Source of the DNA: a virus
IMG/VR virus record: IMGVR_UViG_3300048927_000100
Coordinates: 1-42,451 of that record
DNA: 42,451 nucleotides
Direction: 5' to 3' (one strand)
Position 1 is the first letter of the stretch; every line of letters starts with the position of its first letter. The notes beneath the pieces are model-generated. The model worked only from the letters and a program-made list of their open reading frames with translations, had not been told where the DNA came from and did not search any database. Shown piece by piece: positions 31,766-41,242 of this stretch. Made by a program: the position numbers and the translations under genes.

Positions 31766-32170
31766 ATGAACGCACAGACCACCCAGCGTTTCACCCAGAC
31801 CCACGGCGGCGTGCTGACCGTCATCGATTCGACCACCGGCCTCGAGTGGATCGCCAAGCCGCTGGCTGGCGAATTCGAACACCAGAAGGCCATCGACGCC
31901 TGCGCCGCGCTGGACTTCGCCGGCCACAAGGATTGGCGCCTGCCGACCCGCGCCGAGCTGCTCACCCTGGTGGACATCACCCGCCACGAGCCGGCTATCG
32001 ACACCGAATCTTTCCCCGACTTCCCGAAGCGCGGCTGGTTCTGGACCTCCGACCTGTGCGCCTGGTCTTCGGCGGCCGCGTGGCTCGTCAATTTCGGCCT
32101 CGGCCTCGTCAGCCTCAACCACCGCTACGGCTACGGGATCGCGTTGGCCGTGCGTCGTGCCGGTCAGTAA
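31766..32170 (+). CDS. DGR variable protein 2 (DUF1566/lectin-fold), distal target
   Basis: The 134-aa product has a DUF1566-like body (STTGLEWIAK, DWRLPTRAELLTLVD, WFWTSDL) and a C-terminal variable region from about residue 98 (AWSSAAAWLVNF...YGIALAVRRAGQ), encoded by VR2. In this fold, related to the C-type lectin-like Mtd family, the variable residues form a ligand-binding face. No signal peptide, anchor or fibre domain is present. It lies 5.6 kb upstream of the template. What it binds is unknown. Confidence 0.85.
   Translation: MNAQTTQRFTQTHGGVLTVIDSTTGLEWIAKPLAGEFEHQKAIDACAALDFAGHKDWRLPTRAELLTLVDITRHEPAIDTESFPDFPKRGWFWTSDLCAWSSAAAWLVNFGLGLVSLNHRYGYGIALAVRRAGQ
32059..32164 (+). repeat. 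DGR variable repeat VR2
   Basis: 106 bp align without gaps to TR 37764-37869. There are 16 differences: 15 are at TR adenines (of 23 in the variable core) and one is a T to A change at 32138. The GC-rich 3' end (GCGTTGGCCGTGCGTCGTGC) is invariant and is the initiation region; directly after it VR2 has C where TR has G. Confidence 0.9.
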
Positions 32171-36471: not shown

Positions 36472-36797
36472 GCAAGCGGCATCCCTTCGTCTGTCCGAAA
36501 CCGCCGATCGGTCGGCCGATCCATTACCCGCGCGACGTGCGCACCGTCCGCGACCACCTCCGCCGGCACCTGCGCGAGGAGGGCCGGCAGATGCAGCACC
36601 TGGCCGCAGCGTGGGGCGTCTCGAAGCACACGGTCTATGCGCTGTTCAACGTGGACCGGCCGCTGCCGCCGCAGCACGTCGAGGCATCCATCGCCCACCT
36701 GGGCCTGGACGACTTCGACGCCAACGAATTGAGGCTGCTGGCTGCCCGCGAGGCTGGCTGGCAGATCGACCCGAAGTACCTGATCACCACCCCGTAA
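36468..36797 (+). CDS. HTH (Cro/XRE-like) DNA-binding protein, 109 aa
   Basis: The product contains an HTH (GRQMQHLAAAWGVSKHTVYA, about residues 39-58) followed by a helical section (VEASIAHLGLDDFDANELRL). The ATG overlaps the upstream stop. It lies 16 nt before the proximal DGR target and may regulate the DGR section. The target sites are unknown. Confidence 0.65.
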   Translation: MSKRHPFVCPKPPIGRPIHYPRDVRTVRDHLRRHLREEGRQMQHLAAAWGVSKHTVYALFNVDRPLPPQHVEASIAHLGLDDFDANELRLLAAREAGWQIDPKYLITTP

Positions 36798-36813
36798 CCA
36801 CCAGGAGCACCAC

Positions 36814-37239
36814 ATGAGCAACCCGAAGTTCATCAAGATCGGCGCCGATGGCGCGCAGCTGCCCGACGACGCCACCGGCCATGTCGCCGTCTTCCTGCCC
36901 GACCACGGCCTGACCTTCAGCGCCACCAGCGTGGTGGCCACTGACTTGCCGCACGAGAAGTGCGAGGCGGCGTGCAAGGCCCTGACCCTAGCCGGCCACA
37001 GCGATTGGGACCTGCCGACCATCGAGGAGTTGCAGCTGCTCATCGACCGCAGCCGCTACAGCCCGGCCATCAACACCGACTTCTTCCAGGACATCCGGAA
37101 CGACTGGTACTGGACGAAAACCCCGGCCGCCTGGTCTTCGGCGGCCGCGTGGAGCGTCTATTTCAGCTACGGCGGCGTCAACTACGGCCCCCGCAGCTAC
37201 GACGGGTTCGCGTTGGCCGTGCGTCGTGCCGGTCAGTGA
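36814..37239 (+). CDS. DGR variable protein 1 (DUF1566/lectin-fold), proximal target
   Basis: The 141-aa product has an N-terminal beta region (FIKIGADGAQLPDDATGHVA), a DUF1566 core (DWDLPTIEELQLLIDRSRYS, WYWTKT) and the variable C-terminus from about residue 104 (AAWSSAAAWSVYF...GFALAVRRAGQ). It is a paralogue of the distal target, with a different N-terminal part. Twelve codons of the variable region correspond to AAY or CAC codons in the template. AGGAGCACC precedes the ATG. The Avd gene starts 25 nt downstream. The ligand is unknown. Confidence 0.88.
   Translation: MSNPKFIKIGADGAQLPDDATGHVAVFLPDHGLTFSATSVVATDLPHEKCEAACKALTLAGHSDWDLPTIEELQLLIDRSRYSPAINTDFFQDIRNDWYWTKTPAAWSSAAAWSVYFSYGGVNYGPRSYDGFALAVRRAGQ
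37124..37233 (+). repeat. DGR variable repeat VR1
   Basis: 110 bp align without gaps to TR 37760-37869 with 13 differences, every one at a template adenine (A to G, T or C). The last ~30 bp are identical to TR, and the next base is C in VR and G in TR, an IMH versus IMH* type distinction. The 18 bp after the initiation region match those after VR2 at 14 positions but not those after TR. Confidence 0.93.
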
Positions 37240-37264
37240 TTTGATTTTCTGCTGAGGCCTATCG

Positions 37265-37705
37265 ATGACTTCCCGCTTCCAGCTCCCGCCCATCCTCAAA
37301 GCGTGCGAACGGTTGCTGCTCGAAATTGAGCAGGCCGTCCGGCAGTTCCCGCGCTACCACCGCTACATGATCGGGTCGGACCTGCGCCGCCAGATGATGT
37401 CGGTGAGCAGCTCGGCGAACCGTGCGTGGCGTGACCGCGCCAACCAGTCGAAGTGGGTCGGGCAGCTGGTGTGGGACATCGATGACCTCAAACAGCACCT
37501 GCAGGCCGCCAAGCTGCTCCAGGCGTTCGGCAGCTTCCGGCAGTTCGAGATGCTGATCCGCCTGGCTGAAGAGCTGGGCGCGCAGGCCGGCGGTTGGCGC
37601 CGTCGGCTGGCAAACCCCCAAGCCCAGAATGCGCAAGCCAATGGCGTCGCGCAGCGTGGCCAGAAACTGAGTACCCGTGTCGCCTCTGAGGGGGCCAATT
37701 CATGA
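37265..37705 (+). CDS. avd: Avd-like DGR accessory protein
   Basis: The 146-aa product fits the accessory variability determinant: a basic four-helix bundle with PILKACERLLLEIEQAVRQF, YMIGSDLRRQMMSVSSSANR and VWDIDDLKQHLQAAKLLQAF, and a basic C-terminal tail. In BPP-1 the Avd pentamer binds the reverse transcriptase and template RNA. GAGG lies ~9 nt upstream of the ATG. Its TGA overlaps the RT ATG (ATGA), so the two are translationally coupled. Confidence 0.85.
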   Translation: MTSRFQLPPILKACERLLLEIEQAVRQFPRYHRYMIGSDLRRQMMSVSSSANRAWRDRANQSKWVGQLVWDIDDLKQHLQAAKLLQAFGSFRQFEMLIRLAEELGAQAGGWRRRLANPQAQNAQANGVAQRGQKLSTRVASEGANS

Positions 37706-39063
37706 CGAAGCTTCGCTACCAGCACGGATGCGCTGACGGGTCGAAAGTACATGGGGAGGCGGCCGCCTGGTCTTCGGCGGCCGCGTGGAACGTCAATTTC
37801 AACAACGGCAACGTCAACAACAACCACCGCAACAACAACGGGTTCGCGTTGGCCGTGCGTCGTGCCGGTGAGTTTCAGGGGGAAGTCTCGCTGCAGGATT
37901 TGTACCGGGCATGGCGGCGCGCGCGCCGCCAGAAGGTGCCTAGCTTCAACCAGCTCCGTTTCGACGGGCGTTGGTCCGATGGGCTGCTGCGGCTCGAACG
38001 TGAGCTGGTCGGCGGCACCTGGTCGCCGCGCCCCTCCACCTGCTTCATCGCCACCCGGCCCAAGGCGCGCGAGATTCACGCGCCGGACTTCGCCGACCGC
38101 GTGGTGCACCACTGGCTGGTTCCCCAGCTGGAGGCACTGTGGGAGCCGACCTTCATCCACGACAGCTACGCCAACCGGAAAGGCCGCGGCAGCCACGCCG
38201 CCGTCCGCCGGGCTCAGGAATTCAGCCGGCAGGTGCATTCGGGCCAGGGTGGCGGCTACTACCTGCAGCTGGACGTGGCCAACTTCTTCAACAGCATTCA
38301 CCGGTCGACGCTGTGGGGGATGCTCCGCAAGCGCATGCAGCGCCGCGGGCTGTCCGCTACGGCGCAGAAGGCCACGCACGCCCTCCTCCGCCGGTCGCCG
38401 CTGCATGCCGGCGTCCAGTACCGCGCCACCGAGGCCGAGCTGGCGCAGGTGCCGCCACACAAGCGTCTGGTCAACGCGCCGGCCGGGCGCGGCTTGCCGA
38501 TCGGCAACCTGTCCAGCCAGTTCTTCGCCAACGTCTATCTGGACGCCCTCGACCAGTTCGTGAAGCACGAGCTCAAGGCAGAGCGCTACCTGCGCTACGT
38601 CGATGACTTCGTGCTGTTCCACCACGACCGCGAGCAGCTGGCAGCCTGGCGCGACCAGATCGAGGTCTTCCTGGCCGACCGCCTAGGGCTGCGCCTCAAG
38701 GCTGAGCAGCACCTGCGCCGGTTGACCGATGGCCTCGACTTCCTCGGCTACGTGATCTACCCCACGCATACCCTCGCCCGTCAGCGGGTAGTCGGCCACG
38801 TACGGCAGGCTCTCGCGGAATGGGAAGGCGTGCACGTCGAGGGCAACAAGCTGCGCGGGCGCCCGTCGGCATTCCGTGACCTTCGCACGCGGCTTGCCAG
38901 CTACCAGGGCCACCTGCGGCACGCGAACAGCCACCACCTTCTGGCCTCGCTACACCAACGCTTTCCGTGGCTGGCCTGCGCTGCCACGCCGCGGCGCTTC
39001 AGCCATCGAGCCGAGCGCCAGACCATTTCCATTAATTTCAGGAAGGAGCCGACCAATGGCTGA
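37702..39063 (+). CDS. DGR reverse transcriptase with in-frame TR extension
   Basis: The 453-aa frame starts at ATG 37702 with GAGGGGG upstream. Residues ~20-56 are the template repeat translated (Asn-rich: NVNFNNGNVNNNHRNNN). The RT proper begins near residue 64 (LQDLYRAWRRARRQK). Motifs are REIHAPDFADRVVHHWL (~123-139), YLQLDVANFF with catalytic Asp191, the DGR-type IGNLSSQ (267-273) and YVDDF with Asp301/302. This RT class copies TR RNA with adenine-directed errors for transfer to the VRs. Translation could instead start downstream at TTG (Leu67) or inside the TR, leaving the TR non-coding. Confidence 0.93.
   Translation: MTKLRYQHGCADGSKVHGEAAAWSSAAAWNVNFNNGNVNNNHRNNNGFALAVRRAGEFQGEVSLQDLYRAWRRARRQKVPSFNQLRFDGRWSDGLLRLERELVGGTWSPRPSTCFIATRPKAREIHAPDFADRVVHHWLVPQLEALWEPTFIHDSYANRKGRGSHAAVRRAQEFSRQVHSGQGGGYYLQLDVANFFNSIHRSTLWGMLRKRMQRRGLSATAQKATHALLRRSPLHAGVQYRATEAELAQVPPHKRLVNAPAGRGLPIGNLSSQFFANVYLDALDQFVKHELKAERYLRYVDDFVLFHHDREQLAAWRDQIEVFLADRLGLRLKAEQHLRRLTDGLDFLGYVIYPTHTLARQRVVGHVRQALAEWEGVHVEGNKLRGRPSAFRDLRTRLASYQGHLRHANSHHLLASLHQRFPWLACAATPRRFSHRAERQTISINFRKEPTNG
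37759..37784 (+). repeat. Inverted repeat at the 5' end of the TR
   Basis: GCGGCCGCC (37759-37767) and GGCGGCCGC (37776-37784) form a perfect 9-bp stem with an 8-nt loop. VR1 retains 8 bp of it and VR2 only 4 bp, because the left arm falls outside VR2 homology. The stem contains no adenine. Confidence 0.7.
37760..37869 (+). repeat. DGR template repeat (TR)
   Basis: 110 bp with 23 adenines in the variable core, arranged as ten AAC, one AAT and one CAC codon, which cannot mutate to a stop codon. Both variable repeats align without gaps. The TR starts 58 nt into the RT reading frame and is in the same frame as the target proteins. After 23 free positions 4^23 (about 7 x 10^13) DNA variants are possible. 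Confidence 0.93.
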
Positions 39064-40058: not shown

Positions 40059-40394
40059 ATGGGAGCCGCTGAAAAGCTAGACATCGTCGGAAAGGACTGG
40101 CTCACCGTGGATGAGGCCGCGCACTACTGTGGGGTGTCCAGGAGCCAGTTCGACTCAAACATCGCGGAATACGGGATCGAGCCGCGCAATTTCATGGGCA
40201 AGAAACTCTACGAGAAAGCCGCCCTCTACTCTGTAATCTACGGTTCCCGACAATGGTCAAGGTCACAATCTTCTGGCGGGACGGCGCCGCGTACCTCAAC
40301 TGGCGCGAGGGCGGCAAGCGAAGCCGCGTCGCCATTGGTCGCGTCGGCCCACGAGAAGCTGAGGGCATACGAGCGGCGAAAGAAGCAGAACTGA
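40059..40394 (+). CDS. Excisionase-like HTH protein, 111 aa
   Basis: The product has KDWLTVDEAAHYCGVSRSQF, a MerR/Xis-type HTH, followed by a short wing (IEPRNFMGKKLYEKAALYSV). GGAGACC lies upstream. It is directly before the integrase and overlaps its start by 142 nt; the Ser/Ala-rich C-terminal third is probably overprinted. It likely directs excision, or regulates the integrase. Confidence 0.7.
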   Translation: MGAAEKLDIVGKDWLTVDEAAHYCGVSRSQFDSNIAEYGIEPRNFMGKKLYEKAALYSVIYGSRQWSRSQSSGGTAPRTSTGARAASEAASPLVASAHEKLRAYERRKKQN

Positions 40395-41242
40395 CGCACG
40401 GGGTACGCATCCTGCCCCGGCTCCCCAGCGTCAGGGATTTCCTGGAGGCGTACCTGGACTGGTACAAGGCCGAGCACCCCACCACGCACGGCAAGGCAAA
40501 GAGCGAGGTTCGCCTGTTCATTGCCCGATTCGGGCACCGGCCTATCGACACGCTGCGGCCCATGGAGATGGAGTCCTACAAGTCGGACCGGCTCACCAAG
40601 GACAGGGTTGCGCCTGAGACGGTGGGCAAGGAAGTTCGGCGGCTGCAGGCGGCATTTCGGCGCGGGGTGAAGTGGAAGGAGCTGGACTTCAATCCGCTCG
40701 AAGAGATTCAGGCGCCGCGCGGGGTTCGCAGCGTCGCGGTGCGGTTCTACGACCGGGCGGCGATGCGCAGGCTCTACCGGGCCAATCCTGAGCGCGCCGC
40801 GCTGTGGCTGTTCATGGCGCACACGGGGCTGCGCCGCGGCGAGCTGGTCGGCCTGGGCAAGGAATCGGTCACGGGGCGCCGGCTCAAAGTCGAGAGCGAC
40901 CCGGACGAGGATGGCCAGGGGCGCACGAAGTCCGGCAAGTGGCGCGAGGTGCCGCTGAACCGTTATGCGCGCTGGGCACTTCGCCACCTACCCGACCCGC
41001 TGGTGGCCGTGCACAAGGACACGGTGTCCGACTGGTTCGCCTCAGATGCGAAGCGGGCGGGGATCGGCGGCAGCCTTCACCGGCTACGGCATACCTTCTG
41101 CGCCCACATGGTGATGGCCGGCGTTCCGCTGCGCCGCGTACAGCTGCTCGCCGGGCACGCGGACTACGCGACCACCGAGAAGTACTATGCTCACCTGACG
41201 CCCGAGGGTGACGACGGGGCGGTGGCCAAGCTCAGGTATTGA
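40253..41242 (+). CDS. int: Tyrosine recombinase integrase
   Basis: The 329-aa product has an N-terminal arm-type DNA-binding beta domain (TIFWRDGAAYLNWREGGKR), a SAM-like core-binding domain (~58-150) and a catalytic domain with TGLRRGEL (Arg194), HRLRH (His276, Arg279), GHADY (His302) and TTEKYYAHL (Tyr312). It would integrate the phage at the tRNA-Arg 3' end located 87 bp downstream. The start overlaps the excisionase-like gene. Confidence 0.93.
   Translation: MVKVTIFWRDGAAYLNWREGGKRSRVAIGRVGPREAEGIRAAKEAELTHGVRILPRLPSVRDFLEAYLDWYKAEHPTTHGKAKSEVRLFIARFGHRPIDTLRPMEMESYKSDRLTKDRVAPETVGKEVRRLQAAFRRGVKWKELDFNPLEEIQAPRGVRSVAVRFYDRAAMRRLYRANPERAALWLFMAHTGLRRGELVGLGKESVTGRRLKVESDPDEDGQGRTKSGKWREVPLNRYARWALRHLPDPLVAVHKDTVSDWFASDAKRAGIGGSLHRLRHTFCAHMVMAGVPLRRVQLLAGHADYATTEKYYAHLTPEGDDGAVAKLRY

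Follow-up and report, generated by a model that had tools for sequence, protein, structure and literature searches.

The template repeat of a phage DGR lies in frame within the reverse transcriptase gene, whose start codon sits in a covarying RNA element

In the DGR studied here, the template repeat (TR) lies inside the open reading frame of the reverse transcriptase (RT). We asked whether this TR is translated as part of the enzyme, or whether the RT starts farther downstream and the frame through the TR has no meaning. The DGR is carried by a virus record of 42,451 bases (IMG/VR record IMGVR_UViG_3300048927_000100), whose whole length is called the window below. The window also contains an integrase gene at 40253-41242. 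The parts of the DGR are as follows:

31766..32170, + strand: target gene 2, encoding an Lcl_C protein (Pfam Lcl_C, E 3.5e-26), about 5 kb upstream, with VR2 at 32059-32168.
36814..37239, + strand: target gene 1, encoding an Lcl_C protein (Pfam Lcl_C, E 7e-22), with VR1 at 37124-37237.
37265..37705, + strand: avd, the accessory variability determinant (PHROG 3206, 'Avd protein of DGR', E 1.7e-18).
37688..37694, + strand: GAGGGGG, the Shine-Dalgarno-like site of the RT, recognized by its sequence, 7 nt upstream of ATGA and overlapping the 3' arm of P2 (see below).
37702..39063, + strand: RT open reading frame (RVT_1, E 2e-15; phrog_1423, E 6e-98).
37760..37873, + strand: TR, aligned to VR1 and VR2 with adenine-specific differences, inside the RT open reading frame and in the frame of the targets.

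On every sequence test bearing on that family the locus is a DGR, with a layout that departs from that of BPP-1. A DGR-type RT lies beside the template, an Avd accessory protein is encoded, the TR/VR pairs differ almost only at template adenines, and the target, a C-type-lectin-like protein, ends in the VR. TR and VR1 differ at 14 positions (13 A substitutions and one G>C) and TR and VR2 at 17 (15 A substitutions, T>A and G>C); each VR runs up to the stop codon of its Lcl_C protein. The best PDB match of the RT was 8ub7 (E 5.8e-38), which we take to be the solved RT of BPP-1. Avd reached 32.4 bits against Pfam bAvd and 39.6 bits against NCBIfam DivGenRetAVD, below the respective cut-offs of 40 and 80. 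The Lcl_C domain (DUF1566) is described as a lectin-like fold in the accessible text of PMC6642488. For the hairpin or cruciform that directly follows VR in the BPP-1 type of layout, a basic scan of 70 nt around and after each VR end, covering perfect inverted repeats with arms of 6-12 nt, found none; an imperfect one may be present. Plasmids gave no match. Nine DNA-level matches were obtained among phage records; they were RT pieces only, with 60-80% identity, and none covered 80% of the query.

A preliminary description of the locus had reported that avd and the RT gene overlap in ATGA behind a GAGGGGG site. Both are present, the avd TGA and the RT ATG sharing 4 nt at 37702-37705. It had also placed the TR in the RT frame, which is the frame used in the target proteins, and the alignment bore this out: codons 1-19 of the RT form a leader, codons 20-57 are TR, and the RT fold occupies codon ∼60 onward. 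An open frame through the TR in one GC-rich sequence proves little, because two of the three forward frames are open across the TR region of the window, and because in BPP-1 (locus L204, ∼2141-2456) the brt frame also runs without a stop through TR and spacer, giving a Thr-rich reading. We noticed no Met before the annotated start in the brt frame of BPP-1.

We compared homologous loci, 64 gathered from IMG/VR, 80 from GTDB genomes, and a further set again from IMG/VR, 203 including the window. A TR could be identified in 179 of these, and the 24 loci without one were dropped. The avds of relatives were located by profile, tblastn with the window avd having missed the distant ones, and the VR frame was set by a target-protein profile, open-frame length being unreliable in GC-rich DNA. 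The RT tree was built from 170 distinct RTs, leaving out L042 (short) and eight loci with an RT identical to another. The window falls in one clade of 107 RTs (node support 0.852), whose named hosts include Xanthomonas, Stenotrophomonas, Pseudoxanthomonas, Luteimonas, Lysobacter, Arenimonas, Dyella, Rhodanobacter, and Dokdonella.

The preliminary description had left two options, an RT carrying a TR-encoded segment or a start downstream, and had named stops and frameshifts in homologues as evidence against the first. When we looked for such stops there were none: all 107 distinct RTs of the clade have a frame that runs uninterrupted across the TR. The overlap start, sharing 4 nt with the avd stop, is in the RT frame in 106 of the 107 (103 ATG and 3 GTG). 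The remaining locus, L158, has a frameshift at its start, on a contig with Ns in the TR, and is the sole uncompensated case. Outside the clade, the phase from avd to RT is random (22/16/22 in 60 loci), and in the nearest outside relatives, L082, L083, and L088, stops occur within the TR or behind it. Judged by these counts, the combination of in-frame overlap and open TR is a property of the clade and not a product of chance.

The changes that the region has undergone point the same way. Measured in 103 of the 107 loci, the length from the overlap start to a conserved motif in the RT core has 21 different values, and on the RT tree it changed at least 40 times, always by a multiple of three (start-to-TR lengths cover 92 loci and TR-to-core lengths 89). 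Five loci (L026, L165, L171, L191, and L195) have the TR in another phase relative to the RT; paired compensating indels keep their frame continuous and replace the Asn-rich tail with a Thr/Ser-rich one. The frameshift of L165 and L171 may go back to one common event.

Could the real RT start nevertheless lie in or after the TR, the upstream frame being incidental? The window has in-frame candidates at TTG 37849, GTG 37855, and TTG 37900, in-frame GTG or TTG codons at the TR end are common in the clade, and ATG codons occur within the TR of some Pseudomonas-type loci; in addition, RT homology in phages begins at residues 49-65. Against such a start stand the strictly in-frame length changes, the random avd-to-RT phase outside the clade, and the start codons on offer. 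From the beginning of the TR to the core, 95 of 106 loci have no ATG and nine have no ATG, GTG, or TTG, and in L034, L074, and L199 the overlap start is the sole in-frame ATG, GTG, or TTG before the core. We regard a downstream start as very improbable. A Shine-Dalgarno-like motif is present in 105 of 106 clade loci. Because of the clade-wide frame, the in-frame length changes, the compensated indels, and the loci without another start, comparison of the sequences makes it very likely that the RT is translated from the overlap start through the TR. Of the two options in the preliminary description, the first is thus favored, the frame having been kept across at least 40 length changes and by compensated frameshift pairs. 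Extra internal starts may give a second RT product.

The start codon itself turned out to lie within an RNA element, composed as follows:

37670..37758, + strand: covarying RNA element with the RT start, identified by covariation and adjoining the 5' end of the TR.
37674-37680 with 37749-37755, + strand: P1, pairing the last avd codons with the leader.
37682-37686 with 37691-37695, + strand: P2, whose 3' arm uses part of the Shine-Dalgarno site.
37710-37716 with 37730-37736, + strand: P3, within the leader codons, with imperfect pairing in the window.

The 5' half of the element consists of the last codons of avd, and both the RT start codon and the Shine-Dalgarno site are contained in it. In 58 diverse sequences, its 19 pairs are formed in 93.0% of cells, compared with 78.4% in shuffles, and 140 cells show double changes, compared with 29.1 ± 5.2; none of 500 shuffles matched the element on pairing or on double changes, and slid controls were at most 50.6% paired. 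The element of the window alone is no more stable than shuffles (z +1.2), and the evidence for it is covariation, not single-sequence stability. A covariance model, R1, scored 84.9 bits in the window and was found in 95 of the 95 sources given (the window and 94 clade-type loci), 58 of which had built it. In L173, L175, and L177, the avd/RT overlap lies ∼45 nt further downstream within the element, is still 4 nt long, and is in the RT frame. In Rfam, the best hit for 36700-38600 had an E value of 0.11, all hits were far below gathering scores, and there was none at the strand and place of the element. Model R1 had no match in BPP-1.

A second conserved RNA feature marks the other end of the TR:

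37868..37875, + strand: TR 3' end and putative IMH*, motif GTGAGTnT, with codons 56-58 compared in 101 loci.

All 101 loci have NGT as codon 56 and GAG as codon 57, and 100 of them retain a T at the third position of codon 58. The motif is fixed in the RNA while the RT amino acids vary, which fits a priming or IMH* site at the TR end, as we infer from the alignment. We also looked for a conserved structure of the spacer type 3' of the TR, inside the RT gene, and obtained no support for it: RNAalifold gave an energy of 0 on 105 sequences, 0 to -0.2 on 100-101 codon-aligned sequences, and about -9 on 38-39 near-clade sequences, and fourfold-site diversity just after the TR (0.586 and 0.541) was not lowered relative to the core (0.526). 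The alignment 3' of the TR is poor, which weakens this structure search. Lack of a 3' structure would fit a recognition structure that has moved to the 5' side of the TR.

Translation through the TR would give the RT a tail of ∼57 residues, Asn-rich in the window and predicted to be disordered. In the AlphaFold model of the RT, pLDDT is below 50 for residues 1-59 and 83-98 per block of ten from residue 61 on, with 55 in the last block. For the leader, pN/pS in the near clade (27 representatives) is 0.257, close to the value of 0.211 for the core, and differences by codon position number 482/683/1504; the third-position excess persists at sites unpaired in the RNA element (28/31/93 per site). 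Across the whole clade, the leader signal is weaker (153/202/240, a ratio of 1.35 compared with 1.94 for the core), because RNA-level constraint is mixed in. Some codon constraint on the leader, a Thr at codon 2 kept in 98 of 101 loci, and the residues G36, N37, and E57, invariant in 59 sequences, could be taken to mean that the Asn-rich tail encoded by the TR has a function as protein, binding for example RNA or a partner. However, the TR codons are constrained by their role as template for the targets, the conserved positions at the TR end are constrained as RNA, five loci swap the Asn tail for a Thr/Ser tail, and pLDDT for the tail is below 50; hence we consider a functional tail improbable. 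The TR peptide looks dispensable, and its sequence appears to matter little; the five natural frameshift variants suggest that it is exchangeable. By comparison across loci, and going beyond the preliminary description, the TR peptide is not the conserved thing, and the RT start sits in a conserved RNA structure.

Outside the clade, model R1 was found in seven of 82 non-window loci with E values of at most 0.004 (L088, L084, L141, L083, L087, L092, and L085). The gap from the end of the element to the TR is 2 nt in L088, 9 nt in L085, 10 nt in L087, and 25 nt in L083; in L092 the element touches the TR, and in L084 and L141 the TR comes directly after it. The avd gene stops before the element in L083, L084, L085, and L141, and the RT starts after the TR in these four loci and in L088. 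Because relatives with an RT start after the TR keep the element as the 5' flank of the TR, the element appears to be an ancient component of the template RNA, and avd and RT would have extended into it at a later time. In L084 (5022-5115) and L141 (4166-4259), element and TR follow avd and the RT lies ∼800-900 nt further downstream. In L092 (5743-8217, a Desulfobulbales MAG), one open reading frame of 824 codons joins the RT and a downstream Lcl_C-like target with VR, and may be a fusion or an assembly artefact.

Several other loci have a reading frame through the TR that is not fused to the RT. In L088, avd overlaps (ATGA) a separate leader-TR open reading frame, which overlaps the RT start; in L083, the leader-TR frame ends as GTGA on the RT start. 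In L100, L104, L111, L113, and L126, an ATGA-started open reading frame of 86-96 codons passes through the TR in the frame of the targets and terminates on or close to the RT start. These five are mostly Campylobacterota-type MAGs, and a further IMG/VR scan returned only relatives of at most 48% identity. An overlap-started open reading frame through the TR, in some frame, was scored in 17 of 86 non-clade loci (24 of 93 scored, minus seven clade relatives left out of the tree), and by this count it is a recurring minority arrangement outside the clade; it is not a general DGR requirement, because most non-clade DGRs were scored without one. In the Pseudomonas-type loci L044-L056, L063, and L130-L145, the TR lies in the 5' region of the RT frame, in the Thr-rich phase, without conservation of the start. 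The TRs of L136 and L144 contain stops, and the RT of the Pseudomonas-type loci may start inside the TR.

These relatives bear on a simpler explanation, plain compaction, by which a deletion fused the TR region to the RT gene and the TR is translated without regulatory meaning. The best start would now be at the avd stop, so the frame must stay open, and frame continuity would also be expected if the only good start happens to lie upstream and has no regulatory role. The 144-nt spacer between TR and brt of BPP-1 is missing here, as a deletion would predict, and a disordered tail with a replaceable TR peptide fits as well. Yet ATGA-coupled TR frames that are not fused occur in L088 and the Campylobacterota-type loci, the leader-TR frame of L083 overlaps the RT start, and within the clade a covarying RNA element continues to enclose the RT start. 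The unfused leader-TR frames of L088, L083, and the Campylobacterota-type loci indicate that ribosomes pass through the TR outside the fused clade as well. We therefore hold compaction alone to be possible but rather unlikely.

We consider it fairly probable that translation coupled to avd runs through the template and that folding and translation of the RNA are mutually exclusive. A ribosome that ends avd would re-initiate at the overlapping ATGA, read the leader of 18-19 codons and then the TR, and continue into the RT. While translating, it would have to open the element, in which P1 encloses P2 and P3, and the folded element would hide the Shine-Dalgarno site; a given transcript would thus be either translated or folded as a template. 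RT supply would then depend on avd translation as well as on the state that the template RNA is in. Of these steps, avd-coupled translation through the TR into the RT is well supported by the comparisons above. We infer, further, that in the cell folding precludes translation and vice versa, as a switch, that Avd or RT binds the element, which would limit or repress RT production, and that the element would stop reverse transcription at the TR edge. Because the TR is inside the RT gene and the RT start is in an RNA structure before the template, template and RT message can be one RNA. As a more tentative extension, which we put forward with less than even confidence, this one RNA would have two exclusive uses: once there is enough Avd-RT, it would bind the refolded element and shut its own start, and the transcript would become template. 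The recognition structure would then have moved from the 3' spacer, its place in BPP-1, to the sequence just 5' of the TR, and the template RNA would be coding throughout.

Part of this arrangement is already known. DiGReF (Schillinger 2012, PMC3521204), in its accessible text, catalogued as group 3 those DGRs in which the TR overlaps an end of the RT open reading frame, and took the arrangement as irrelevant. With its TR at RT codons 20-57, the window belongs to this group. That text records the arrangement alone and leaves frame, start site, coupling, and RNA element untreated, so the overlap class as catalogued in 2012 came without frame analysis. TR translation is not discussed in the accessible text of PMC6642488, PMC8144416, PMC4372165, PMC10907252, and PMC3240598. 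We found no report of the RNA element or of the conserved frame in a search of papers available without subscription; translational coupling in DGRs gave no paper, among the papers listed for DGR covariation, RNA structure, or ribosome the only one that names DGRs was a group II intron review, and among those listed for DGRs of Stenotrophomonas or Xanthomonas none dealt with this subject. What is new here, from comparative sequence analysis, is an RT start codon and Shine-Dalgarno site within a strongly covarying element that abuts the TR. By comparison, a whole phage clade, mostly of Lysobacterales, would translate its template as part of its own enzyme. This raises the questions of how the ribosome and the reverse transcriptase share one RNA, whether the enzyme works in cis on the message that encodes it, and what keeps hypermutation in check. 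Lying beside the TR and having no Rfam match, the element is a new handle on the 5' limit of the cDNA or on RNP assembly.

Among the closest known systems is BPP-1 (mtd-avd-TR-brt), with which the window shares the order of avd, TR, and RT, a C-terminal VR in the target, and adenine-specific differences. In BPP-1, the avd stop TAA abuts the TR (2178-2311), which is followed by the 144-nt spacer and the brt start at 2456, and according to the accessible text of PMC12875486, a motif in the avd 3' end ends cDNA synthesis and the 3' spacer recruits proteins. The window does not have this type of layout, in which non-coding sequence between avd and RT holds the TR and a 3' spacer follows; instead, there is no spacer, the TR lies inside the RT open reading frame, the RT starts before the TR at ATGA, and a structured element lies 5' of the TR. 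Group II introns such as Ll.LtrB also encode an RT, LtrA, within their own template RNA. Their open reading frame is in domain IV, looped out of the ribozyme, and binding of LtrA near its own start site represses translation, whereas in the window the copied template itself lies in the reading frame. Finally, gene pairs coupled by an ATGA overlap can have a structured site that hides the Shine-Dalgarno sequence and is opened by the upstream ribosome; in the window, the coupling site doubles as the 5' flank of a template for reverse transcription.
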